Source of the DNA: Hyphomonas johnsonii MHS-2
GTDB taxonomy: Bacteria; Pseudomonadota; Alphaproteobacteria; Caulobacterales; Hyphomonadaceae
Reading direction: 5' to 3'
Length of the DNA: 64,000 bases
NCBI RefSeq assembly: GCF_000685275.1
Contig: NZ_ARYK01000005.1
Span: 186,001-250,000 of the forward strand
Shown here piece by piece: positions 3,195 to 23,216 of this stretch. The stretch's first letter is position 1; each line of letters opens with the position of its first letter. The translations under genes were made by a program, and so were the position numbers. The notes under the pieces are model-generated. The model was not told the origin of the DNA, did no database searches, and worked only from the letters and a program-made list of their open reading frames with translations.

Positions 3195-3348
3195 GCGCGG
3201 TCCGTGCCGCGTTCGGGAGGCACCGGCATCGATCTCATTGGTGCAAGCCCCTGTACATCGACCGGTTGCGGCCCGAATACCAGCTTAACGGCACACGACT
3301 TCCCCGCGCAACCGGGCGGAAAGCAGGAACAGCTGCATGATGGGGATT

Positions 3349-3801
3349 CTAGAACTTGAAGGCGGACTTCAGGCGAATGCCGGTCTCGACCTGACGGTCT
3401 TCCCATTCCGACGTGTCGTTCAGCCGGTCAGCGCCGACGCTGACTTCACCGCCGACCGAGAAGCGCGGCGTGACGCGGAACGTGGCGCCGGCCTGCATCT
3501 GCTCGCGCGGCAGGGGAGACGAGTTCGGACGGGTCAGCATGTCGAGATTGAGCTGCCAACGGGTATTCCCGCCGAACTGGACGGAAAAATCGTCGGTCGC
3601 ATCGGGCTGCCATGACGGCTTGGTGTCGACCGGCTTGGCCTGCGCGAACTGGCGATACCATTCAGCTTGCGCCGCTTTGGTTTCGGAAAGGGTCGGCGCT
3701 TCGACCTTCATGACGGCTTCAGGCGCAACAGGATCGGCCACGGCTGGCAGGGCCAGCGCGGCTGAAATAATCGTGAGAGATAGGATAAAGCCCGTCTTCA
3801 T
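3349..3801 (-). CDS. NtrZ-like periplasmic protein
   Basis: A 150-residue exported protein: residues 1-22 form a signal peptide ending PAVA before DPVAPEA, and the C-terminal half has alternating beta-like stretches ending FKF. Size, signal peptide and the FSVGGEVSVGADRLND-type C-terminus resemble the NtrZ family, periplasmic partners of the NtrY nitrogen sensor kinase known from Caulobacter. The identification is from memory of the family and is tentative; a small outer-membrane or beta-rich protein is the alternative. Start at ATG 3801 is supported by GGAAGG eight bases upstream. A perfect CtrA-type box lies 40-55 bases upstream. Confidence 0.6.
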   Translation of the reverse strand: MKTGFILSLTIISAALALPAVADPVAPEAVMKVEAPTLSETKAAQAEWYRQFAQAKPVDTKPSWQPDATDDFSVQFGGNTRWQLNLDMLTRPNSSPLPREQMQAGATFRVTPRFSVGGEVSVGADRLNDTSEWEDRQVETGIRLKSAFKF

Positions 3802-3840
3802 TTCCTGCACCTTCCACAAGACAATAGTCATCCTGGCCAG

Positions 3841-3856
3841 TTAAGAGAAGATTAAC
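3841..3856 (+). promoter_or_regulatory. CtrA-type box upstream of ntrZ-like gene
   Basis: TTAA at 3841-3844, seven bases, then TTAAC at 3852-3856: a full match to the CtrA consensus TTAA-N7-TTAAC. It lies between the stop of the porin gene and the start of the ntrZ-like gene, where the latter's promoter would be. CtrA binding is inferred from the motif; two more matches occur at the probable origin. Confidence 0.7.
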
Positions 3857-3875
3857 ATTCGGAAACCGTGGCAAT

Positions 3876-5054
3876 TTAGAAGGATAGTGTGATTTCTAAC
3901 ACAACACCTTCCGCCGAATCGCGCTGCGAAGCCGGTCGCAAGGGCAGGATTTGCCGCTGGCGATTGTCCTGTTCGCGATAGCCAAGCGCCAGATTCACGC
4001 CGTCACGCACCTCTTTCGAGGCCCCGATGCTCCACGCCTCGCTGTCCAGACCGGTGAGATCGTCCTGCGATTCACCATAATCAAGCCCGAATGTCAGGGA
4101 AAACGCCTGCTTGGTCGCGCCGATCGTCCAGGCCGAATAGTCTCCCGGCCCTGAATCCACGCCATTATTGCTGCTCAGCACGCTCGCGCCGACCGTGACG
4201 GTGTCGAATTCGGCCGAGCCACCCGCCGACCAGGTCTCGACGGTGCCGTAGATCGGCGCAGCCGCTGCGCCGGCGTCCACGTCTGCCCGGCTATAGGCCA
4301 GCGTTGCCTGGAGCCTGATGCCGCTCTCTCGCAGGCGCCGGTTGAGGTTGAGCGCGGCTTCGGCCGCCGATTCGATGCGGATATCCGGCACGCCGGGGAT
4401 GCTGCGCTCGGGATCGCGGTCAAGGCCGCGCACATCGGCGCGCGGCGTGAACGAGATCCCCGCCCTCAGTCCGAGGATGCGCGGGCTGGCATAGCTCAGC
4501 TTGGCCGCCGGGCCCGTCAGGTCATGGTCGGTGCGGATATAGCCGCCGCCGGCCGGATCCAGCACAGGATTGGCTGTTGTCGCCGCGCCGAAAATGCCCG
4601 GCGCGCCCTCGTGGAACCGCGCCGCCACGCCCCGGTCGCGCCCCAGCCGCACCTCGCCATAGCCACCCTCGGCATAGATATAGGCCGCTTCGAGCTGGCC
4701 GTGCGGGCCGACATGTTCCGATTGCGGGCCAAGCGCCAGGCCACTGAATGCGCCCTGCCAGCCACCCGCGACGCCTGTGCCGCCCCCCGGCACGCCGCTG
4801 AAGCCCGCCCGCGCCGGATGGTCAGCCTGGACCTCGAACCGCCCCGCCGCACCGATCTCCAGCCCGTTGTCGAGCACCCGGTTGGTCGACAGGGAAAAAC
4901 GGCCCAGCCAGGCCACCGGCGCGCCGTCTGCTGTCGATGCGGCAACCGCAATATCAGCCTCGTGTTCGGTTTCCCAGACGTCCCAGTCGTCCTGCGCCAC
5001 TGCGTGGGCGCCTGCGAGGCCCATAACCACTAGCAAACTCACGGGCTTCCACAT
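3876..5054 (-). CDS. Gram-negative porin
   Basis: A 392-residue outer-membrane beta-barrel protein. It has a signal peptide (residues 1-21, ending AHAVAQ), repeated amphipathic strands with glycine/aromatic girdles, and a C-terminal phenylalanine (ITLSF), the sorting signal for the BAM complex. Conserved VRLGRD-like and PEFGDLDYGES-like loops fit the alphaproteobacterial general porin group. Start at ATG 5054 is chosen because CAGGAGAG lies just before it and the signal peptide begins there. Substrate specificity cannot be read from sequence. Divergent from the DUF3576 lipoprotein gene. Confidence 0.85.
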   Translation of the reverse strand: MWKPVSLLVVMGLAGAHAVAQDDWDVWETEHEADIAVAASTADGAPVAWLGRFSLSTNRVLDNGLEIGAAGRFEVQADHPARAGFSGVPGGGTGVAGGWQGAFSGLALGPQSEHVGPHGQLEAAYIYAEGGYGEVRLGRDRGVAARFHEGAPGIFGAATTANPVLDPAGGGYIRTDHDLTGPAAKLSYASPRILGLRAGISFTPRADVRGLDRDPERSIPGVPDIRIESAAEAALNLNRRLRESGIRLQATLAYSRADVDAGAAAAPIYGTVETWSAGGSAEFDTVTVGASVLSSNNGVDSGPGDYSAWTIGATKQAFSLTFGLDYGESQDDLTGLDSEAWSIGASKEVRDGVNLALGYREQDNRQRQILPLRPASQRDSAEGVVLEITLSF

Positions 5055-9696: not shown

Positions 9697-10611
9697 TCAG
9701 GCTTTGCGTTTGGCTGTCAGGCGGCGGCAGACATCGTCCAACTGCTCGAGATCACGATACTTGATGCGGATTTCACCGCCCTCGCGGCCATGTCGAATGT
9801 CGACGGCAAGGCCGAGTGTGCGAGTCAGGTCCGCCTCGAGGGCCTCGGTATCGACGTCTTTTTCGTCGGTGGGCCGTGCGGATTTCGTTTCGATCGGGCT
9901 GCTGCCCTTGGCGTCACGCGCCCGGGCCTCAACATCGCGCACGCTGAGGCCTTTTTCGGCTGCCAGTCGCACAAGCGCTTCCGGGTCCGGCGCAGCCAGG
10001 GCAGCGCGCGCATGCCCCGCACTTATCTTGCCCTCCCGGATATATGACCGCGCGCTTTCCGGCAGCTGCAGCAGGCGCAGAGTATTGGCGATATGGACGC
10101 GGCTCTTGCCGACGCTCGTCGCCAGGCTGTCCTGCGTACGGCCAAAGCGCTTGATCAGCGCTTCATAGGCCTCCGCCTCCTCGATCGGATTGAGGTCAGC
10201 GCGCTGGACGTTCTCGATGATCCCGATCTCGAGCAGTTCAAGCTCGTCGATCTGGCGGACAATTGCCGGGATGGTTTTCAGGCCTGCGATCCGGGCCGCG
10301 CGCCAGCGCCGCTCGCCCGCGATAATCTGGTACTTGCCGGCGTCCTTCGGATCCGGACGCACCAGAATCGCCTGCAGCACACCCTTGGTCTTCAGTGAAT
10401 CGGCGAGTTCCTGCAACGAGGCCTCATCAAATGTCCGGCGCGGCTGGGCCGGATTGCGGCGGATGAGGTCGACATCAATCTCGTCCGATGCACGGACAGG
10501 CGCCTCCCCGGTCTTCGCGTCCGGCGCAGGGCCGACGGCGTCGACCTCGCCCATCAGGGCTGACAGGCCGCGTCCAAGTCTCGATGGTCTGCTCTTTGCG
10601 TCTTCGCTCAT
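9697..10611 (-). CDS. parB: Chromosome partitioning protein ParB
   Basis: A 304-residue CTP-dependent DNA clamp that loads at parS, spreads, and with ParA separates sister origins. Visible are GRGLSALMG near the N-terminus (ParA-interacting end), the CTP-binding GERRWR at about 99-104, a helix-turn-helix (SLATSVGKSRVHIANTLRLL) that reads parS, and a basic C-terminal dimerisation domain ending TAKRKA. It lies five bases after parA on the same strand, so the two form an operon. Two perfect parS sites are 1.4-1.9 kb upstream. Confidence 0.97.
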   Translation of the reverse strand: MSEDAKSRPSRLGRGLSALMGEVDAVGPAPDAKTGEAPVRASDEIDVDLIRRNPAQPRRTFDEASLQELADSLKTKGVLQAILVRPDPKDAGKYQIIAGERRWRAARIAGLKTIPAIVRQIDELELLEIGIIENVQRADLNPIEEAEAYEALIKRFGRTQDSLATSVGKSRVHIANTLRLLQLPESARSYIREGKISAGHARAALAAPDPEALVRLAAEKGLSVRDVEARARDAKGSSPIETKSARPTDEKDVDTEALEADLTRTLGLAVDIRHGREGGEIRIKYRDLEQLDDVCRRLTAKRKA

Positions 10612-10616
10612 CTCGT

Positions 10617-11429
10617 TCAGGCCGCTCTCGCCTTCTCGCGTTGCAGGACTTCGGACGCGAGCCGGATATAGGCTTCGCTGCCCGGGCAGCGGTAATCATA
10701 CAGCAGTGCCGGCTTGCCGAAGGAAGGCGCTTCCGACAGGCGGACATTGCGCGGAATCACCGTATTATACACCTTGTTGCCGAAGAATTCGCGGACCTGG
10801 TCTGCAACGTCATCCGACAGGTTGTTGCGGCGGTCATACATCGTCAGCACCACACCCTGGATTTCCAGGGTCGGATTCAGACCGGACCGGACGACTTCGA
10901 CCGTTCGCAGCAGTTGCGTCAGGCCTTCCAGCGCCAGGAATTCGCACTGCAACGGCACCAGAAGGGCGTCGGCGGCGGTCATCGCGTTCAGGGTCAACGC
11001 CGACAGCGACGGTGGGCAGTCGATCAGGATATAGTCATACCGGACCAGTTCGCCATTGACGGTGCGGTCGATATAATTGTGCAGCGCTTCACGCAGGCGG
11101 TATGACCGCCGCGGATCGGCTGCAAGCTCGGTTTCGACACCGGAGAGGTTCTCGTCGCCCGGCACAATGTCGAGCCGCGGCACAATCGTCGACAGGACCG
11201 TCTTTTCGAGGCCCACCCGGTCGATTACCAGGTCATAGCTGGTCAGAGTCCTGTCCTGACGAGAGATGCCGAGGCCGGTCGATGCGTTGCCCTGTGCGTC
11301 GAAATCGATGATCAGGACGCGCCGCCCGACGGCCGCCAGGGCCGTGCCGAGATTGATGGACGTGGTCGTCTTGCCGACGCCGCCCTTCTGGTTGACCACC
11401 GCAAATATTCTTGGCTTAGCCGTCGACAC
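10617..11429 (-). CDS. parA: Chromosome partitioning ATPase ParA
   Basis: A 270-residue deviant Walker ATPase. KGGVGKTT at residues 15-22 is the deviant Walker A box with its signature lysine; DFDAQGNAS is the Walker A' region and ILIDCPPSLS the Walker B region. ParA-ATP coats the nucleoid and pulls ParB-parS complexes poleward. Length is typical of chromosomal ParA. Its start lies within the last codons of rsmG (14-base overlap), the usual rsmG-parA-parB order. Confidence 0.97.
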   Translation of the reverse strand: MSTAKPRIFAVVNQKGGVGKTTTSINLGTALAAVGRRVLIIDFDAQGNASTGLGISRQDRTLTSYDLVIDRVGLEKTVLSTIVPRLDIVPGDENLSGVETELAADPRRSYRLREALHNYIDRTVNGELVRYDYILIDCPPSLSALTLNAMTAADALLVPLQCEFLALEGLTQLLRTVEVVRSGLNPTLEIQGVVLTMYDRRNNLSDDVADQVREFFGNKVYNTVIPRNVRLSEAPSFGKPALLYDYRCPGSEAYIRLASEVLQREKARAA

Positions 11430-12039
11430 GCTTGAGCTCCCTTATTTTCAATACGACCCCAGCCCCGCCGCTGCGACTCGGAATCGCCTCATACGCGAAG
11501 TTCCACACTTGCCGGGCATCCGTCAATTCTTCTTCCCAGCGTTCGCCCTTCAGGAACAGCCCCTTTGCGCCGTTTTTCATCCACGGCGCGGCGTAGTCCA
11601 GCAAACGTGGAAGCCTGGCAAACGCCCGGGCGGTGACGAGGTCGGCCGGGTTCACGGGGGCATTTTCGACCCGTCCCTGGACGACATCCGCCGTCAGGGA
11701 CGCCGCCTGGATCGCCGCGCGCAGGAAAGCGGCCTTCTTGCCGACGCTCTCGATCATTGTCACGTGGACGTCCGGCCGCGCGGCCGCGAGGATGAGACCC
11801 GGAAACCCCGCGCCCGATCCCAGGTCGACGATTCGCGCGCCGTCCGGAACATGATCGAGCAATTGCAGGCAATCCCAGACGTGCCGGAGCCAGATGTTCG
11901 GCCATTCCTTCGGCCCGATCAGGTTGCACCGCATCCGCCATGCATCGAGCGTATCGATCACCTTATCGAGCCGGTCCAGTGTTTCACGTGAAACATCGTG
12001 GGCGGCCAGGAAAGCCGCCCGGTCATTATCCGCCGCCAT
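11416..12039 (-). CDS. rsmG: 16S rRNA (guanine-527-N7) methyltransferase
   Basis: A 207-residue SAM-dependent methyltransferase (GidB) that modifies G527 of 16S rRNA. Motif I reads VDLGSGAGFPGL; the early segment CNLIGPKEWPNIWLRHVWD matches the family's substrate-binding region. It is four bases downstream of mnmG and overlaps parA. The coding sequence for VSRET near the N-terminus is itself a perfect parS site, so this stretch serves both the protein and chromosome segregation. Confidence 0.95.
   Translation of the reverse strand: MAADNDRAAFLAAHDVSRETLDRLDKVIDTLDAWRMRCNLIGPKEWPNIWLRHVWDCLQLLDHVPDGARIVDLGSGAGFPGLILAAARPDVHVTMIESVGKKAAFLRAAIQAASLTADVVQGRVENAPVNPADLVTARAFARLPRLLDYAAPWMKNGAKGLFLKGERWEEELTDARQVWNFAYEAIPSRSGGAGVVLKIRELKRVDG
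11980..11995. other. parS site 1 (inside rsmG)
   Basis: TGTTTCACGTGAAACA, a perfect 16-bp palindrome identical to the consensus chromosomal parS. It lies in the 5' part of rsmG, read in frame as Val-Ser-Arg-Glu-Thr. ParB encoded nearby should bind here; the site is about 7.5 kb from the probable origin. Confidence 0.95.
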
Positions 12040-12042
12040 CTT

Positions 12043-13908
12043 TCAGCCCGCCTTTGCCCGACGTTTTACATGACTGAGCAGCGCCGTCAGGGCGCCCGGT
12101 GTGACTCCTTCGATCCGGCCGGCCTGACCGAGTGTGACCGGGCGGATGGTTTCGAGCTTTTGCCGGACTTCGTTCGACAAGCCACCGACCGTTGCATAGT
12201 CGATATCACGTGGCAGCGTCAGGCCCTCGTCTCGCCGGAGCGCGGCAACATCGGCCGCCTGGCGCTCCAGGTATCCGGAATAAAGCGCCTCGATTTCCAA
12301 TTGGGCGCCGACGGGGGCCGGAATGCTCGCAAGATCGGGCCATACACGGACGAGATCAGCGAGTCCGATATTCTTGTAGGCGAGATAGTCCCACGCCGTC
12401 CGCATCCGTCCATCCTGGTTGATATCCCATCCGGCCGCCGCGGCTTTTGCCGGGGACAGGGAGACAGATCGCAGTTTTTCGCGGGCGTCGGTTAACGCAG
12501 ATTGTTTCACGTGAAACACTTTGGCCCGAATCTGGCCCACAATCCCCGATTCCACGCCCTTTTCGGTGAGTCGCTGGTCCGCATTGTCGGCGCGGAGCGC
12601 GAGACGGTATTCTGCGCGCGACGTGAACATCCGGTACGGTTCGGTGACGCCGCGCGTCACCAGGTCATCAATCAGCACCCCGATATAGGCTTCGGCCCGG
12701 TCAAACATCACTGCGTCCTTGCCGTCGACCGCGCGCGCGGCGTTCAGGCCCGCAACCAGGCCCTGGGCGCCCGCCTCCTCGTAACCGGTCGTGCCATTGA
12801 TCTGGCCGGCAAGATAAAGGCCGGGCATCGACCGTACTTCCAGCGATGGCGTCAAAGCCCGCGGATCGACATAGTCATACTCGATGGCATAGGCGTGTTG
12901 GCGGATCACGACGTTCTCGAGACCCGGTATTGTCCGAATGAAGTCTTCCTGGACAGACTCCGGCAGCGACGTGGAAATACCGTTCGGGTAGACCGTGTCA
13001 TCCTCCAGCCCTTCCGGCTCCAGGAATATCTGGTGGCGATCGCGGTCGGCGAACCGATGCACCTTGTCCTCGATGGAAGGGCAGTAACGCGGGCCGCGCC
13101 CGGCAATCGCGCCGGAATAGACAGCCGACTGGTTGATATTGTCCGCGATGATCTGGTGCGTTTCGGCCGTCGTCCATGTGATCCCGCAGGAAACCTGCGG
13201 CACGTCGATCCTGTCGGTGAGGTAAGAAAACGGCACCGGTTCTGCATCGGCCGGCTGCATCTCCAGCTGGTCCCATGCGATCGTGCTGCCATCCAGCCGC
13301 GCCGGTGTCCCGGTTTTCAGCCGCCCCATCGGTAGGTCCATGGCGTACAGCCGGTCAGACAATCCAATCGCCGGGGCCTCACCGACACGGCCTGCCGGAA
13401 TGCGCTTGTCACCGATATGGATCACGCCCTTCAGGAAGGTTCCTGTTGTAATTACAACAGCACCCGCCCGGTATGACTTGCCGGTCAGACCGGTCACACC
13501 GGCAATCCGACCATCCTCGATGACCAGGTCTTCCGCCCCGTCCTCGATGATCGTTAGGTTTGGATAGTCTGCCAGTTCCGCCTGCATCGCTTCGCGGTAG
13601 AGTTTGCGGTCGATCTGCGCGCGCGGACCCCAGACGGCCGGGCCCTTGGACCGGTTCAACATCCGGAACTGGATCCCCGCCTTGTCCGCCATGCGGCCCA
13701 TCAGACCATCGAGAGCGTCGATCTCGCGCACGAGATGGCCCTTGCCGAGGCCACCGATCGCCGGATTGCAACTCATCTCGCCAATGGTGGCGCGCTTGTG
13801 CGTGACCAGCGCAGTGCGCGCGCCATAGCGCGCAGCCGCAGCTGCCGCTTCACAGCCGGCATGGCCGCCGCCGATCACGATCACATCAAACTGGTCTGGC
13901 ATCGCCAT
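12043..13908 (-). CDS. mnmG: tRNA uridine-5-carboxymethylaminomethyl modification enzyme MnmG
   Basis: A 621-residue FAD enzyme (GidA) that works with MnmE to modify the wobble uridine of tRNAs. The FAD-binding GGGHAG is at residues 13-18, followed by the family signature [25 protein letters not shown] region (about residues 48-68) and [13 protein letters not shown]. Length is normal. A perfect parS site is embedded in the C-terminal half, translated as Val-Phe-His-Val-Lys-Gln. The ATG at 13908 has GAGG upstream; ATG 13902 is an alternative. Confidence 0.97.
12503..12518. other. parS site 2 (inside mnmG)
   Basis: A second perfect TGTTTCACGTGAAACA, 523 bp from the first, inside mnmG. Here the reading frame is shifted relative to site 1 (codons GTG TTT CAC GTG AAA CAA), so the same DNA word is kept while encoding different residues. 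This argues for selection on the DNA, not on the peptide. Confidence 0.95.
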
Positions 13909-16768: not shown

Positions 16769-17197
16769 TCAGAACGGCTCGACGACAACCAGGATGACGA
16801 TGGCGATCATCAGCACGAAGGGCACTTCGTTCATCATGCGCAGACGCCGCACGGACACGCCGTCGGCGCCGCGGTCAACCTTCTTGCCGACCGAAATGAA
16901 GTGCCCATGCAAAGCCGACAGGATCAGCACGAGCAGAAGTTTCACATGCATCCAGCTTTGCGACAGCAGGCCGGGATTGAGCCACAGCATGGTCAGCCCG
17001 AGCAGCCAGACCAGGATCAGGCTCGGATTCATGATGATCATGCGCAATTGCTGCGACGCTTTCTTCATTGCCTCGAACAGGGGCTCGCCTGGCGCGCTCG
17101 ACAATTGGTGGATCTTGTACCGCGGATAGATCAGCAGGCTCGCCATCAGCGCGATGACGCAAATAATGTGAAATGCGCGTACCCATTCATACAACAC
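16769..17197 (-). CDS. hemJ: Protoporphyrinogen IX oxidase HemJ
   Basis: A 142-residue integral membrane protein with four predicted membrane helices. The first, after LYEWVRAFHIICVIALM, holds the conserved His of HemJ (UPF0093), and KIHQ/ WMHVKLLLV / HGHF carry further conserved residues. HemJ oxidises protoporphyrinogen IX to protoporphyrin IX, the substrate of the neighbouring ferrochelatase. Start: GTG at 17197, with GAGGAG seven bases before it inside the end of hemH, giving an 11-base overlap; the long upstream extension in this frame is hemH antisense-frame noise. Confidence 0.9.
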   Translation of the reverse strand: MLYEWVRAFHIICVIALMASLLIYPRYKIHQLSSAPGEPLFEAMKKASQQLRMIIMNPSLILVWLLGLTMLWLNPGLLSQSWMHVKLLLVLILSALHGHFISVGKKVDRGADGVSVRRLRMMNEVPFVLMIAIVILVVVEPF

Positions 17198-18275
17198 GGG
17201 CCTGCTCCTCTTCTGCTGCCAGCGACACGGCATGGCCCGCCGTGCGCACCACGTCTGCATGCGGACACCCCGTCGCGCCGGTTGGGCAGAGCCGGCTGCC
17301 GGCACATGACCGGATCCGTCCGGCCATACCAAGTGCCGCTAGGGTTTCGCCTGCCAGCACCGCGATGAAATCCGGATGATCTCCCAACGCCTCGACCCGT
17401 GTATAGCTCGGTGCGCCATGCTTTTCGGCCAGCAGGCGGTATTCCTCGCCGAGTTCGACCAGCGTTTCGATATGCTCGGAAACGAACGCGATCGGCGCAA
17501 TCAGGATGTTCTTCTTGTCGGTCGCCGCGCGCTCGACCTCCGCATCGGTTGCCGGGCCGATCCATTTCAACGGGCCGACGCGAGACTGGTAACAGCCGAC
17601 GACATCCCACTCCTGCGGCACGCGCGCGGCAATCATCGCGGACAAGGTCTCGCACTGCCACTGGTAGGGATCACCCGCCTCGACGATCTTTTCAGGCAGG
17701 CCATGCGCCGACAATAGCAAGCGAACATTCTCCGGCCGGCCCGCCTGCTCGTGTGCCGCCATGATCCGGTCGACATGTGCGCTGACAAAGCTTTCGGCGA
17801 ATGGATAGCAACACACCGTCCGCGTCGGACCTGAATAATGCCGCTTCCACTCTGCCAGCGACGAACCCGTCGTGGTTGTCGAGAATTGCGGATAGAGCGG
17901 CAGAAGGACAATTTCGTCCGCGCCCCAAGCTTTGACGGCCTTGGCTGCGGCCTTCGTGAACGGATGCCAGTAGCGCATGGCGATGAAGGTCTTCACTTCG
18001 TCGTCCGGCAACTGGACGGCGAGATCTGCACGCAATGCATCTGCCTGCTTCTCGGTTTCCGGCAGGAGGGGAGATCCCCCGCCCATGATTGCATAATTCT
18101 TGCGGGCCATCGGTGCACGGGTACGGGAAATGAACCGCGCGAGTGCCCAGCGGACAAGTCCTGGCGCCTGGATGATCGCCGGGTCGTCAAACAGGTTCCG
18201 CAGGAAAGGCCGCACGGCTTCCGGGCGATCCGGACCCCCTAGATTGAACAAGACAACAGCGATCTTCCTGCCCAT
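17187..18275 (-). CDS. hemH: Ferrochelatase
   Basis: A 362-residue enzyme that inserts Fe2+ into protoporphyrin IX, the last step of heme synthesis. The N-terminus VVLFNLGGPDRPEAVRPFL is diagnostic, LLLSAHGLPEK carries the catalytic His, and VGPLKWIGP is the conserved substrate loop. The C-terminal segment has three close cysteines (SCAGSRLCPTGATGC), which could ligate an iron-sulfur cluster as described for some alphaproteobacterial and mycobacterial ferrochelatases; a fourth ligand is not obvious. It lies eight bases downstream of hemE and overlaps hemJ. Confidence 0.95.
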   Translation of the reverse strand: MGRKIAVVLFNLGGPDRPEAVRPFLRNLFDDPAIIQAPGLVRWALARFISRTRAPMARKNYAIMGGGSPLLPETEKQADALRADLAVQLPDDEVKTFIAMRYWHPFTKAAAKAVKAWGADEIVLLPLYPQFSTTTTGSSLAEWKRHYSGPTRTVCCYPFAESFVSAHVDRIMAAHEQAGRPENVRLLLSAHGLPEKIVEAGDPYQWQCETLSAMIAARVPQEWDVVGCYQSRVGPLKWIGPATDAEVERAATDKKNILIAPIAFVSEHIETLVELGEEYRLLAEKHGAPSYTRVEALGDHPDFIAVLAGETLAALGMAGRIRSCAGSRLCPTGATGCPHADVVRTAGHAVSLAAEEEQARVV

Positions 18276-18283
18276 GACGGAGG

Positions 18284-19321
18284 TCAGCCTTCCCGCAGGA
18301 TGTTCAGGGCGCGCTCGACATTCGCAATCGGCGTGTCCGGTCGGACGCCATGCCCGAGATTGAATATATGGGGCCGACCTGAATAGGCTGCCACCAGTTC
18401 ACGGATGCGTGCGTCCATTCGTCCGCCACCTTCGATCAGCAACAGCGGGTCGAGATGCCCCTGCACAGGCAGGTTCTCCGGCAGGCTCGTATTCACGAAT
18501 CCAGGCACTGCCGCTGTATCCAGGCCCACGGCCGATACGCCTGTCTCGCGCGCATACTCGCCCAGCATCACACCTGCGCCGCGCGGGAACCCGATAATCG
18601 GAACCGTGACTCCCATCTCGCGGATCAGCGAAACCAGCCGTGTTGTCGGCGCAATGATCACTTCCCGGAAAATATTGTCAGGCAGGCCCTCGGCCCAGCT
18701 GTCGAACAGCATCAGCACGTCAGCGCCAGCTTCAACCTGCCGCGCAAGATAATGCGCCGTCGCCTCGATCACATGGTCCATCACGGACTGCAGCTCTTCC
18801 GGCCTGCCATGCGCCCAGCGCCAGGCCAGCGACTTGTCAGTCTTGCCACGCCCCTCGATGGCATAGAGGCTGACCGTCCAGGGTGATCCGGCAAATCCGA
18901 TCAAGGCCTTGTCCGGCGCGAGGGCTTCGCGGACACGCGACACCGTTTCATAAACAGGCGCCAGACGGTCGGCAGCGAGCCTGGCAGGTACTTTCCCGAG
19001 ATCCGCAGCACTGCTGATCTGTTGGACAAGCGGGCCAACGCCCTTCTGGAACTCGACCTTCAGTCCCATCGCATCGAGCACCAGAAGGATATCGGCGAAC
19101 AGGATGGCAGCATCCATATCGTAGCGCCGCACCGGCTGCAGCGTCGCTTCGCTTGCCATGGATGGGGTGTAGCAAAAGTCGAGAAAGTCCTTCGCGCGGG
19201 CGCGCAGCTCGAGATATTCAGGCAGGTGGCGTCCGGCCTGGCGCATCATCCATACCGGAGGCGTCTTGGCTGGCGTGCCGGAAAGAACCGAAATCAGTTT
19301 GGATGTGCTGGTTTGCCCCAT
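18284..19321 (-). CDS. hemE: Uroporphyrinogen decarboxylase
   Basis: A 345-residue cytoplasmic enzyme turning uroporphyrinogen III into coproporphyrinogen III. The N-terminal VWMMRQAGRHLPEY is the family signature with substrate-binding Arg residues; ILFADIL and GFAGSPWT(V)SLY are further conserved blocks. It heads the leftward heme cluster hemE-hemH-hemJ and borders the probable origin, as hemE does in Caulobacter, where transcription from the origin reads into hemE. Confidence 0.96.
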   Translation of the reverse strand: MGQTSTSKLISVLSGTPAKTPPVWMMRQAGRHLPEYLELRARAKDFLDFCYTPSMASEATLQPVRRYDMDAAILFADILLVLDAMGLKVEFQKGVGPLVQQISSAADLGKVPARLAADRLAPVYETVSRVREALAPDKALIGFAGSPWTVSLYAIEGRGKTDKSLAWRWAHGRPEELQSVMDHVIEATAHYLARQVEAGADVLMLFDSWAEGLPDNIFREVIIAPTTRLVSLIREMGVTVPIIGFPRGAGVMLGEYARETGVSAVGLDTAAVPGFVNTSLPENLPVQGHLDPLLLIEGGGRMDARIRELVAAYSGRPHIFNLGHGVRPDTPIANVERALNILREG

Positions 19322-19459
19322 GACCTGCCTTGTCTTTCATTATCTCAAAAAGCCCGTCAGGGCGCTTATGATTATTATGCGGTGTAATAGGGGGAGAAAG
19401 GCCACTGGCGATATTTGTCCAGCAAATTCCACACGCGAGTCACACCGTGTCGCACCCCG

Positions 19460-19475
19460 TTAGGATCTTCTTAAC
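19460..19475 (+). promoter_or_regulatory. CtrA-type box in oriC (left)
   Basis: TTAG at 19460-19463, seven bases, TTAAC at 19471-19475: one mismatch from TTAA-N7-TTAAC. In Caulobacter, phosphorylated CtrA bound at such boxes blocks DnaA-driven initiation; the same role is inferred. Confidence 0.7.
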
Positions 19476-19493
19476 CCTCCGATCCTGCGGGGG

Positions 19494-19509
19494 TTAATGG
19501 CAGGTTAAC
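19494..19509 (+). promoter_or_regulatory. CtrA-type box in oriC (right)
   Basis: TTAA at 19494-19497, seven bases, TTAAC at 19505-19509: perfect consensus. It starts 34 bp after the left box, so the two are on nearly the same face of the helix. Confidence 0.8.
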
Positions 19510-19668
19510 ACGCCTTGTGGAGTCACAGGATGAAACATAGCGGGAACCATGGGGAGTCAGATTCGCGTCGGTGTGGATGGATTGTGACTCCCTGTGTGGC
19601 AAATCCCCTGTCCACAGGTTGCACACAGGCCTTGTGAAACGGCGCGTGCCTCGGCAAGAGATAGAGCC

Positions 19669-20511
19669 ATGTCCATGCCGCCACGCCCCAGCATCTATTT
19701 CAACGTGCACCTTGTGTCCGACAGCACGGGGGAAACCCTGAATGCCGTGCAGCGTGCCGCCTGTGCCCAGTTCGAGAACGTGCAGCCGCTCGAGCACAAT
19801 TACTACCTTGTCCGGTCGGAACGCCAGCTCGAACGCGTGATGCGCGAAATCGAAGCAGCGCCCGGCGTGGTCTGGTACACGATTTCCGACGAGGCCTTGC
19901 GGGCGCGCCTCGAGACCTTCTGCCGCGAGCGCGGTGTTGCCACCCTGCCTGTCCTGGATGCATCGATCGCCATGCTCGGCCGGCACCTCGGCATTGCCGC
20001 AAACCACAAGGTCGCCGGCCAGCATACCCTCGACCAGGACTATTTCGACCGCATGGAGGCGATCAACTTCACGCTCGCCCATGATGATGGCCAGAATGTC
20101 GACGGCCTCACCGGCGCCGATGTCATCCTGCTCGGTGTCAGCCGCACGTCCAAGACACCGACATGCGTCTACCTCGCCAACCGCAAGGTCCGCGCCGGCA
20201 ACATCCCGCTGGTGCCGGGCGTATCCATCCCTCCTTTTCTCGAGCAGTTCGGCGAGAAGGATCCGATGGTCGTCGGCCTCAAGATCAGCGCCGAGCGCCT
20301 CGTCCAGATCCGCCGCCAGCGCCTGATCTCCCTGAACCAGGACGAGCACACGATTTACGCGGACGAGGACGCCGTGCGCGACGAGATCACCCAGGCAAAC
20401 CGCCTCTTCCAGCGCAACAAGTGGAAGACGATCGACGTGTCGCGCCGCTCGGTGGAAGAAACGGCGGCGGCGATCCTGAACATGCTCAATGAACGGCGTG
20501 CACAACAATGA
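19669..20511 (+). CDS. ppsR: Pyruvate, phosphate dikinase regulatory protein (DUF299)
   Basis: A 280-residue bifunctional kinase/pyrophosphorylase that switches pyruvate-phosphate dikinase or PEP synthase off and on. HLVSDSTGETL at the N-terminus and the P-loop-like VSRTSKTPTCVYLA are family hallmarks, as are GNIPLVPG and the late YADEDAVRDEI. Start at ATG 19669 (MSMPPRPS) fits family length. It is the first gene to the right of the probable origin, matching the DUF299 (RP001-type) gene at the Caulobacter origin, and overlaps maf by four bases. Confidence 0.92.
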   Translation: MSMPPRPSIYFNVHLVSDSTGETLNAVQRAACAQFENVQPLEHNYYLVRSERQLERVMREIEAAPGVVWYTISDEALRARLETFCRERGVATLPVLDASIAMLGRHLGIAANHKVAGQHTLDQDYFDRMEAINFTLAHDDGQNVDGLTGADVILLGVSRTSKTPTCVYLANRKVRAGNIPLVPGVSIPPFLEQFGEKDPMVVGLKISAERLVQIRRQRLISLNQDEHTIYADEDAVRDEITQANRLFQRNKWKTIDVSRRSVEETAAAILNMLNERRAQQ

Positions 20512-21104
20512 GTACTGCCATCACCCTCGCGTCCGGCAGCGCCAGCCGGCGCGCGCTCCTCGCCGCTGCGGGCGTCGATGCGGCCAGCGTCAGGCCGAAC
20601 GTGGACGAAGATTCTGCACGGGCCGCCATGCGGGCCGATGGCATGTCGGTCCGCGACCAGGCCATGCGCCTTGCCGAGCTGAAAGCCATCAAGGTGTCGC
20701 GCAGCACGGAGGGCCTCGTCATTGGCGGCGACCAGATGCTGTCAATCGACAGGGACGCGCTCGACAAGCCGGCTGACCTCGCCGCTGCGGCAGACCATCT
20801 CCGCCGCCTTTCGGGCAAGGCGCACACGCTGGAGACGGCGATCGTCATCTGCGAAAACGGCGCGCCTGTCTGGCGGCACCTCGCCCGGCCGAAACTCACC
20901 ATGCGCCCTCTCAGCGAAGCCTTCATCGCGGCCTATGTCGAGCAGGTCGGCGAACCGCTCCTGGCCACTGTCGGCGCCTACCAGCTGGAAGGGCTCGGCG
21001 CGCAGCTCTTCACCGCCATCGAGGGCGATTATTTCTCGATCCTCGGCCTGCCGCTGCTGCCGCTTCTCGACTACCTGCGCACGCGTGGGGTGCTGCCCTC
21101 ATGA
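20508..21104 (+). CDS. maf: Maf family nucleotide pyrophosphatase
   Basis: A 198-residue protein starting with LASGSASRRALLAAAGV, the Maf signature, followed by the conserved ARAAMRADG and GGDQMLSID blocks. Maf enzymes hydrolyse non-canonical or specific nucleoside triphosphates and are linked to division arrest when overproduced. The exact subfamily (dTTP/UTP or 7-methyl-GTP) is not certain from the residues I can see. Both ends overlap neighbours by four bases (ATGA). Confidence 0.9.
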   Translation: MSTAITLASGSASRRALLAAAGVDAASVRPNVDEDSARAAMRADGMSVRDQAMRLAELKAIKVSRSTEGLVIGGDQMLSIDRDALDKPADLAAAADHLRRLSGKAHTLETAIVICENGAPVWRHLARPKLTMRPLSEAFIAAYVEQVGEPLLATVGAYQLEGLGAQLFTAIEGDYFSILGLPLLPLLDYLRTRGVLPS

Positions 21105-21916
21105 CCCGGCTCTATGGCGTCATCGGCGACCCTATCGCTCACTCGCTATCCCCCCTGATCCACAATGCCTGGCTGCGCGAGCATGGCATTGATGCCGACT
21201 ACAGGGCGATGCAGGTGCCTGCCGGCCAGCTCCCCGATGCGCTGGAAACCCTGACCCGCCAGGGCTCGCGCGGGGTCAACATCACATTGCCGCACAAGCA
21301 GGTGGCCCTCCAGCTGGCGGAATCATCCGGCAGTCTCGTGATGCGCATTGGGGCTGCCAACACACTCATCCGGACCGATTCAGGCGGCTGGCATGCCGAA
21401 AACACCGATGCGCCGGGCTTCGTGCATGCGCTGGAGTCCGCCGGTATCCAGGTCGCCGGCAAGCGGGTCTTCCTGCTCGGCGCCGGTGGATCGGCTCACG
21501 CCGTTGCTGTCGCCCTCACGGATCTTCGCGCCGCCCTCACGATCTGCAACCGTACCCTCGCACATGCCGAATCCCTTGCGACCCGGCTCGACATCACGCC
21601 CGATATCCGCACGCTCGAGGCTGGTCTGGCGGACCTTTCGACTGCCGATATCGTCGTGAACACCCTCAGCCTTGGCTATGAGGGTGGCGGGCTGGACCTG
21701 CCGCCCGGCAGGGGCCGCACCTTTTACGATATCAACTATGGCAGGGCCGCCGCCGCCACGCGCGAACGCGCTGTCGCGCAGGACTGGAAGACGCTGGACG
21801 GACTCGGCATGCTGGTCGCCCAGGCGGCGTTCAGTTTCGAACACTGGTTCGGTATCCTGCCGGACATGGCAGCCGCCGAGCAACGCTGCCGCGCCGTCGT
21901 GGAGGCAACAACATGA
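21101..21916 (+). CDS. aroE: Shikimate dehydrogenase
   Basis: A 271-residue NADP-dependent enzyme of the shikimate pathway. [14 protein letters not shown] and GVNITLPHK are the substrate-binding signature (with the catalytic Lys), and [11 protein letters not shown] is the nucleotide-binding glycine loop; NRT follows, as in NADP-type AroE. Length is typical. Overlaps maf and coaE by four bases each. Confidence 0.95.
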
Positions 21917-22521
21917 TCATCCTTGGACTGACGGGCTCCATCGGCATGGGCAAGTCGGCCACAGCGGCCCTGTTCCAGGACGCCGGCGTGCCTGTCTACG
22001 ACGCCGACGCGTCCGTACACCAGCTCTATGGCAAGGGCGGCGCCGCCGTTGCGCCGGTCGAGGCCGCCTTCCCGGGCGTGACCAGCGATGGTGCGATCGA
22101 CCGCCAGCGCCTGCGCGAGCGCGTGCTCGATGATGCCGCTGCGATGAAACGCCTTGAGGCCATCGTCCATCCCCTGACCGGCGCCGCCCAGCACGATTTC
22201 CGCGCCGCGGCCCGCGAGGCAGGTGAACCCTTCGTCGTGCTTGATATCCCGCTGCTCTACGAGACGGGCGGCTGGCAGTATTGCGACTACGTCCTCGTCG
22301 TGACCGCTCCACCGGACGTGCAGCGGGAGCGGGTCATGTCCCGGCCGGACATGACCGAAGCGGTGTTCGAGTCGATTCTCGCGCGGCAGGTATCCGACGC
22401 AGACAAGCGCGCCCGGGCAGATTTCATCCTGTCCACGGCGCACGGCTTCGAGTTTGCGCGAGACCATGTTCAGGCCATAATCGCCCTCATGATTCGCAAG
22501 CACGAGGAACTGGACTCATGA
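21913..22521 (+). CDS. coaE: Dephospho-CoA kinase
   Basis: A 202-residue P-loop kinase that makes coenzyme A from dephospho-Co[15 protein letters not shown] is the Walker A region; [12 protein letters not shown] and [12 protein letters not shown] are the conserved substrate blocks. Length is normal. It overlaps aroE upstream and dnaQ downstream by four bases. Confidence 0.95.
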
Positions 22522-23216
22522 CCGATCCGATCCGTGAAATTGCCTTCGATACCGAAACCACAGGCCTCAAGCATGCTGAGGGTGATCGCATCATCGAGAT
22601 GGGCGCCGTGGAGCTCCTCAACCATATCCCGACCGGGAACACATTCCGGACGCTGATCAACCCGAAGCGGCTCGTATCGGCCGATACTGTTCGGATCACC
22701 GGCATCACCGACGATCACCTGAAGGATGCCCCCTTCTTCGAAGACCCCCTCGTCGTCAACGCTTTTCTCGAATTTGTCGGAGACGACATCATCGTTGCGC
22801 ACAATGCGGGTTTCGACCGGGGATTCCTCAACATGGAACTGGCCCTGTGCGGCCGGGCGCCAATCCACGATGACCGGTGGGTCGACACTGCTGCCATGGC
22901 GCGCCGGAAATATCCGGGTGCCCCGGCCAGCCTTGATGCCCTCTGCAAGCGCTTCGATATCTCGCTTGAAAGCCGCACGCTGCACGGCGCCCTGCTCGAC
23001 AGCCAGCTGTTGGCAAGCGTCTACCTTGAACTGCTCGGCGGCCGGGCCCGTGCTTTCGCTTTCGACACGCCGGAAGACCAGGCCACCGCTGGAACCCGTC
23101 GTCCGGCCAGCCAACGCCCGCAGCCCCTGCCCCCGCGCATTACGGAGGCAGAGGCGGCAGCGCATGCCGAGTTTATCGAGAGCCTTGGTCCGGACACGCT
23201 CTGGAAGCGCGCCTGA
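22518..23216 (+). CDS. dnaQ: DNA polymerase III subunit epsilon
   Basis: A 232-residue DEDDh 3'-5' exonuclease, the proofreading subunit of the replicase. Exo I is AFDTETTGL, Exo [13 protein letters not shown], and Exo III ends [11 protein letters not shown] with the catalytic His and Asp. The C-terminal tail with polyproline and [14 protein letters not shown] is the likely alpha-binding part. ATG 22518 overlaps the coaE stop; the longer upstream frame is coaE read in another frame. Confidence 0.95.

Follow-up and report, generated by a model that had tools for sequence, protein, structure and literature searches.

The gap between hemE and ppsR in Hyphomonas johnsonii MHS-2 occupies positions 19322–19668 of the window, that is, of the 64,000-nucleotide stretch analysed here (NCBI RefSeq contig NZ_ARYK01000005.1, positions 186,001 to 250,000 of the forward strand). 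This contig, C5, is 304.5 kb long and belongs to a genome of 18 contigs and 3.62 Mb in total. The gap is very probably the chromosomal replication origin, and it carries two CtrA boxes together with a conserved cluster of GANTC sites, many of which are fused to DnaA-box-like sequence. The initial annotation of this DNA had placed the gap between hemE and ppsR (DUF299) and had noted a switch of transcription direction; NCBIfam models confirm both neighbours, which are divergent, hemE on the minus and ppsR on the plus strand. The genes and the boxes of the gap are as follows.

18284..19321, minus strand: hemE, left neighbour of the gap (NCBIfam TIGR01464, 347 bits, above cut-off)
19414..19422, plus strand: DnaA-box-like TTTGTCCAG, with TTgTCCa conserved in the genus alignment
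19425..19433, plus strand: box A, DnaA-like, AATTCCACA, with TCCACA in 26/26 Hyphomonas and 13/16 other family gaps
19436..19444, plus strand: box B, CGAGTCACA, a GANTC (19437) fused to a DnaA-box-like core, GANTC in 24/26
19460..19475, plus strand: CtrA box, TTAG-N7-TTAAC, with a single mismatch that is absent from the close relatives L001–L004 and L031, where the box is perfect
19494..19509, plus strand: perfect CtrA box, TTAA-N7-TTAAC, matching the H. neptunium chromatin immunoprecipitation (ChIP) consensus (PMC7200025)
19519..19527, plus strand: box C, GGAGTCACA, with GANTC at 19520, GANTC in 25/26
19554..19564, plus strand: GANTC pair GAGTC-A-GATTC, the site at 19554 in 21/26 and that at 19560 in 17/26
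19572..19580, minus strand: box D, CCATCCACA, a GANTC version in 10/26 Hyphomonas
19583..19591, minus strand: box E, TGTGACTCC, a GANTC at 19586 fused to TGTG, GANTC in 26/26
19608..19616, plus strand: box F, DnaA-like, CTGTCCACA, with TcCACA conserved in the genus alignment
19619..19627, plus strand: box G, TTGCACACA, lacking the GANTC form of its relatives, GANTCACA (22/26)
19630..19638, minus strand: box H, DnaA-box-like, TTCACAAGG, with CTTGTG in 26/26 Hyphomonas
19669..20511, plus strand: ppsR, right neighbour of the gap (NF003742, 317 bits, above cut-off), with its start taken from alignment with relatives

A mechanical open reading frame call that began ppsR at 19594 was rejected as too early, the aligned relatives putting the start near 19669.

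The origin itself is ordinary in position and type, and already known. The proposal of the initial annotation that it lies here is well supported by a skew switch in a closed genome of the same genus (G006), by parAB and parS nearby, and by published data on H. neptunium. In G006, GC skew was taken from 20 sampled stretches of 20 kb (400 kb of 3.58 Mb, with closer sampling around the gap); 11 stretches on one side are negative and nine on the other positive, so that 20/20 are consistent. The sign switches between the two stretches flanking the gap, at 1,222–1,242 kb (-0.040) and 1,244–1,264 kb (+0.020), and switches again roughly half a chromosome further on. On C5 itself the skew is noisier: its minimum falls 8.5 kb to the right of the gap, and its sign is mixed elsewhere. 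The skew of the window's own contig was accordingly dropped as proof, and the case for the origin rests on the closed congener. The initial annotation had named a skew minimum or replication peak elsewhere in the chromosome, or a genome without ctrA, as grounds for abandoning the origin; G006 switches at the gap, and ctrA is in the genome. The partition elements in the window are these.

9697..11429, minus strand: parB and parA (ParB by TIGR00180, 194.7 bits, above cut-off; ParA by partition-ATPase similarity, below the equivalog cut-offs)
11980..11995, plus strand: perfect parS, from a motif scan of the window
12503..12518, plus strand: perfect parS, from the same scan

The two parS compare with 0.10 expected at up to three mismatches. 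The dnaA gene is not beside the gap and sits on contig C3. The arrangement is like that of H. neptunium, a member of the same genus, in which the marker-frequency (replication) maximum lies close to hemE, with parAB about 7 kb away and two parS (PMC6650430), and in which CtrA was bound next to ori by ChIP (PMC7200025). The authors of the former study obtained no clear origin result from GC skew, the dnaA gene or DnaA sites (PMC6650430).

The two CtrA boxes were found much as they had first been described, a perfect one at 19494 and, with a single mismatch, a near-perfect one at 19460. The pattern TTAA-N7-TTAA occurs twice in the window, versus 0.04 expected from shuffles, and is not enriched genome-wide (17 places in 3.6 Mb versus 24 for the reversed pattern). 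The genome encodes CtrA (L047; NF045991, 401 bits for a cut-off of 350, and a PDB 4qpj match over residues 1–118), CcrM (L048; PDB 6pbd, E 2.5e-161, and NF050803 at 614 bits, under its cut-off of 830) and GcrA (L040; PF07750). The features of a Caulobacter-type CtrA-regulated origin, namely a hemE flank, CtrA boxes within the origin and a ctrA gene, are thus all present.

The count of five GANTC sites in about 150 bp proved exact (19437, 19520, 19554, 19560 and 19586, spanning 154 bp). Dinucleotide shuffling gives 1.3 expected in the gap (p 0.010; 200 shuffles), and over the whole window GANTC is depleted (132 versus 284 expected). No 300-bp segment of C5 contains more than five, and five are reached at one other place, near 170.3 kb of C5 and outside the window; this genome alone therefore leaves the cluster not unique, and it is the genus that sets it apart. 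Among 23 named non-redundant Hyphomonas loci of about 8.9 kb each, the gap is the densest 300 bp for GANTC in all 23, and in G006, with 10 sites in the gap, no 300-bp segment of 400 kb sampled elsewhere exceeds six.

The comparison of this interval in related genomes that the initial annotation had called for was made by the same shuffle test, with 107 of the 149 other sampled genomes taken (G012 and G073 were dropped because they had no hemE). The 15 genomes of the window's own genus, that of the window included, have a mean of 8.3 GANTC per gap versus 1.6 in dinucleotide shuffles, with p 0.010 or lower in every one. A second genus, g2 (14 genomes), has a mean of 5.4 versus 1.7, with p<0.05 in 11, and the single genomes of two further genera, g3 and g4, have 11 and five sites. 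Altogether the gap is enriched at p<0.05 in 28 of the 31 genomes of the Hyphomonas family and in 0/19 of a sister family, f2, which is probably Caulobacteraceae; this taxonomic range had escaped the initial annotation. Families f3, f4 and f5 reach p<0.05 in 1/20, 1/19 and 1/17 genomes, respectively, one more f5 genome standing at 0.050. For the rest of the class, 60 of 86 other genomes with a hemE match were taken, 45 of which have a divergent ppsR within 1 kb; seven of these 45 gaps are enriched at p<0.05 (mean 2.84 versus 2.07), so enrichment of this gap is sporadic elsewhere in the class. Outside the family, G133, G206 and G260 each have eight GANTC in the hemE–ppsR gap (p 0.005 to 0.015), so origins rich in methylation sites may have evolved repeatedly.

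Site conservation was followed in 26 non-redundant Hyphomonas gaps with pairwise identities of 53 to 95%. Out of 38 loci, L022, L037 and L038 had no hemE in the fetched stretch, L032–L034 (Robiginitomaculum) and L007 (a 731-bp piece with no CtrA box) stand outside the family alignment, and L030 stands outside the genus set; the named loci and the same-genus genomes overlap (L001 and G105, for example), so that the enrichment and conservation counts are not independent samples. The GANTC is kept at 19586 in 26/26 gaps, at 19520 in 25/26, at 19437 in 24/26, at 19620 in 22/26, at 19554 in 21/26 and at 19560 in 17/26. Changes were counted by parsimony on a tree of the gap itself, in which the average column has 3.0 changes and 29% of columns have none. 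At 19586, the TGTGANTC site, the T, G, T, G, A, T and C columns show 0 changes versus five at N, which is A in nine gaps, C in six, G in six and T in five. At 19520 the five GANTC columns have 1, 0, 5, 0 and 0 changes (N being G in 15, A in eight and C in two), and at 19437 they have 2, 0, 2, 0 and 0, without a contrast between N and its flanks. A strict five-column scan (at most one change outside, at least six in the middle) returned no windows, because the best GANTC N column has five changes; a looser conservation scan returned three at 0.9, of which two are GANTC and the third is an AANTC within box A, and a further set of five at 0.8. The simplest reading of the pattern at the conserved sites would be selection for the CcrM methylation site itself, since a site for DnaA only would need no palindrome with a free middle base. 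One Hyphomonas metagenome-assembled genome (MAG), L007, has a GC-richer hemE-to-ppsR piece (731 bp as cut, at about 3287–3957) in which the GANTC are spread apart and no CtrA box lies within one mismatch; its long gap reflects an insertion into an origin or else an assembly error.

The consensus DnaA box is TTATCCACA. The DnaA-like boxes claimed in the initial annotation are present, with the qualification that none in the gap lies within one mismatch of this consensus; the best by eye, CTGTCCACA (19608–19616) and CCATCCACA (minus strand, 19572–19580), have two mismatches each. Eight aligned box-like positions were recognized, along with triplets ending in TAAG. Boxes and GANTC had been listed separately, and the fusion of many GANTC sites to DnaA-box-like sequence had gone unnoticed. 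The fused 9-mer, xGANTCACA, has A3 and CACA in common with TTATCCACA. In the 26 gaps, 107 of 207 GANTC have the form GANTCACA or TGTGANTC, versus six of 535 on the rest of C5 and eight of 352 in the flanks of the relatives; by group, fused sites number 61/119 in the window's own genus and 2/49, 2/56, 2/37 and 1/49 in f2 to f5. GANTC is mostly absent from boxes A and F, which are kept with TCCACA, and is present in boxes B, C and E and usually in G. Fusion across the whole family was considered and rejected, as 0/75 sites are fused in g2; that genus is enriched all the same, so fusion is a trait of the genus and not the cause of the enrichment, which is a trait of the family.

At three boxes, GANTC and a DnaA-like sequence interchange between relatives. 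Box G has GANTC in 22/26 Hyphomonas versus TCCAC in 16/16 other family gaps, and box B has GANTC in 24/26 versus TCCATA or TCCCCA in 11/16. Box D has GANTC in 10/26 Hyphomonas, the others having CCATCCACA, CTTTCCACA and similar sequences; elsewhere it is a perfect TTATCCACA in one second-genus genome and CGAGTCACA in the g3 genome.

The best explanation we can offer, which we hold at about even confidence, is an origin in which CtrA blocks initiation and CcrM-methylated DnaA-like boxes hold back a second start. The paired CtrA boxes (19460 and 19494) have a group of DnaA-like boxes on either side, and CtrA bound to the pair would exclude DnaA in swarmer cells, a step suggested by analogy with Caulobacter and by the H. 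neptunium ChIP. Several of the weak boxes read GANTCACA or TGTGANTC in Hyphomonas and would so contain the adenine that CcrM methylates. Once the origin has fired, its two copies would remain hemimethylated up to a late action of CcrM in the cycle; in Caulobacter CcrM acts late, and new DNA becomes fully methylated only shortly before replication ends (PMC3973325). The hemimethylated state may alter how the boxes are bound by DnaA or by a protein that reads methylation; GcrA, with its preference for methylated GANTC (PMC8116508), is one candidate for reading the origin sites. Occupancy of the weak boxes would thereby be lowered, or handed to the reader, until CcrM resets the sites, and a second start would be held back. 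Three steps here are predictions from sequence: binding of DnaA to these boxes, a change of that binding with methylation, and a resulting limit on initiation.

Several observations weigh against this explanation. In C. crescentus, the origin of which has several GANTC, control of initiation reportedly does not depend on CcrM (PMC3973325). The CcrM part of the control suggested in the initial annotation is made plausible by the conserved GANTC cluster, and has this published result against it; in the same species, extra chromosome copies are seen on CcrM overproduction (PMC3973325). No SeqA (PF03925) match was found in the H. johnsonii genome, the E. coli control being positive, and any methylation reader would therefore be another protein. 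The gaps of the same genus have five to 10 GANTC each, and that of H. johnsonii has the fewest among the 15. The site at 19620 is missing from H. johnsonii and three relatives (4/26); with the low count here, this implies that no fixed number of sites is needed. The second genus is enriched in GANTC with no fused sites, and it offers no clear DnaA-box equivalent of boxes C and E, which weakens the case for these two; for box E, TTATTCACA was found only in the g4 genome, in a distant alignment.

A rather unlikely but serious alternative is that the GANTC cluster serves transcription in a plain CtrA/DnaA origin, GcrA and CcrM timing the promoters of the gap (hemE, ppsR or a CcnA-like origin RNA). 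The C. crescentus origin holds a CtrA-linked non-coding RNA (PMC8959179), which makes an origin RNA a live rival, by analogy, for the function of the GANTC; GANTC is generally commoner between genes (PMC3973325), and a conserved hairpin followed by T's lies directly before hemE. Five to 10 sites per gap are nevertheless more than one promoter should need, and about half of the gap GANTC are fused to DnaA-box-like cores. In addition, no sigma-70 promoter was called in the gap (with 0.3 expected, this has little weight) and Rfam gave no match.

We consider it improbable that GANTCACA and TGTGANTC are the site of another DNA-binding protein, with GANTC incidental to it. The fused element is strongly conserved, boxes C and E lack a DnaA-like box in the second genus, and TCACA resembles the half-sites of other regulators, all of which would suit such a protein. 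The free N at 19586, which takes all four letters while GA and TC are fixed, suits a methylase site instead; GANTC without CACA is also kept (at 19554 in 21/26, at 19560 in 17/26), and GANTCACAG shows no genome-wide excess (26 places, one of them in the gap, versus 30 for the reversed pattern). Very improbable, in our judgement, is an ordinary Caulobacter-type origin in which the GANTC density reflects a general intergenic excess, chance and shared descent. Alphaproteobacteria with CcrM do have GANTC over-represented on average more than 1.5-fold between genes (PMC3973325), seven of 45 class-level gaps reach p<0.05, and the count of the H. johnsonii gap is tied by one other place on C5. Such an account is opposed by an excess that averages five-fold across the 15 genomes of the genus and has p 0.010 or below in each, by the gap being the highest of its locus in 23/23, and by the persistence of the sites at 53–95% pairwise identity while N changes.

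The proposed origin with a CtrA block and methylated DnaA-like boxes can be compared with known systems. It is like the C. crescentus origin, Cori, in having CtrA boxes among weak DnaA boxes and hemE transcription from the origin (PMC8959179, PMC4468827), as well as several GANTC motifs, which are reported there also (PMC3973325). It is unlike Cori in that GANTC is not above shuffles in the 19 genomes of f2 and in that CcrM is described as dispensable for initiation control in C. crescentus (PMC3973325). In E. coli the weak boxes R5, I2, I3, tau1 and tau2 overlap GATC, and SeqA bound to the hemimethylated sites denies DnaA access to these boxes; by the same account, the mechanism seems to be confined to a few proteobacteria with Dam (PMC4285127). 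The Hyphomonas gap resembles oriC in its clustered methylase sites, which in oriC overlap weak DnaA boxes (PMC4285127) and here overlap DnaA-box-like sequence, and differs in having GANTC and CcrM instead of GATC and Dam, no SeqA, and CtrA as a second control. Of the attributes of a Dam/SeqA-type origin, then, the cognate methylase (CcrM) and the clustering of its sites (GANTC for GATC) are found, and the SeqA reader is not. The likeness to oriC presumably reflects independent evolution. That Hyphomonas independently evolved an E. coli-like methylation brake, with CcrM sites in weak DnaA boxes and a readout by DnaA or a reader other than SeqA, beside CtrA, is possible, and we suggest it only tentatively.

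GANTC is also abundant in repABC origins and repE promoters (PMC6090056). In Agrobacterium ori2, CcrM levels alter initiation and hemimethylation has been proposed to stop re-firing, and ori1 counts are not significantly changed by CcrM levels (PMC11514494). However, ori2 is of the RepC type and acts at least partly via transcription of repC and gcrA (PMC11514494), and is not a DnaA origin with GANTC in DnaA-like boxes, as proposed for Hyphomonas. The available text of the two H. neptunium papers does not describe GANTC at ori, the term having 0 occurrences in that of PMC7200025 (PMC6650430, PMC7200025). Among the matches listed for GANTC, CcrM, Hyphomonas and origins, none describes, as far as their accessible text goes, GANTC inside the DnaA boxes of a main chromosome. 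The GANTC pattern at the Hyphomonas origin therefore looks new. PMC3973325 cites a 2009 study of Caulobacter-group origins by Shaheen et al. for the presence of GANTC in origins, and that study may already mention part of the pattern.

Whether CcrM controls replication starts was tested in C. crescentus, with a negative answer (PMC3973325), and the Hyphomonas sequence suggests otherwise. Hyphomonas offers a natural case in which methylase sites are fixed inside DnaA-box-like sequence while the free base drifts. H. neptunium is cultured and has been synchronised (PMC6650430), and the sister lineage without fused sites provides a control. If the proposed mechanism holds, a DnaA-dependent alphaproteobacterial origin would be under direct methylation control, with one start per cycle, and methylation-gated DnaA origins would have arisen at least twice, with different methylases and readers.

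Two further elements lie at the hemE end of the gap.

19352..19363, minus strand: GCCC-GTCA-GGGC hairpin GCCCGTCAGGGC, just upstream of the hemE start, with T's after it on the hemE strand, and almost unchanged across the Hyphomonas alignment
19365..19378, minus strand: candidate unwinding element, made of TA[A/G]-type triplets with TAAG at their end, where the gap is richest in AT

The hairpin is terminator-like by eye only, as the terminator scan did not call it, and it was not seen in the alignment of the second genus; it is possibly the end of leftward or origin transcripts, or a leader control. The scan of the gap for sigma-70 promoters and terminators returned none, as was to be expected, and an Rfam search of window positions 17000–23000 gave no match. 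The TAAG at 19365–19378 is present in 26/26 Hyphomonas and 13/16 other family gaps (39/42 in all), and the triplets, read against what we take to be the DnaA-trio motif, may form a DnaA-trio-like unwinding element.

The identified genes of the region follow the order leuS, parB, parA, rsmG, mnmG, mnmE, rho, hemH, hemE, gap, ppsR, maf-like, aroE and coaE, the maf-like gene scoring below the NCBIfam cut-offs; the hemE side and the genes to the right of the gap have what we take to be the Caulobacter origin gene order. The ppsR of H. johnsonii is up to 93% identical to those of named Hyphomonas relatives. Three loci titled as Acidobacteria or Sulfopaludibacter MAGs (L022, L023 and L025) have a ppsR 83–84% identical to it, and L023 and L025 also have a hemE about 74% identical to that of H. 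johnsonii; all three are probably mislabelled or contaminated bins.
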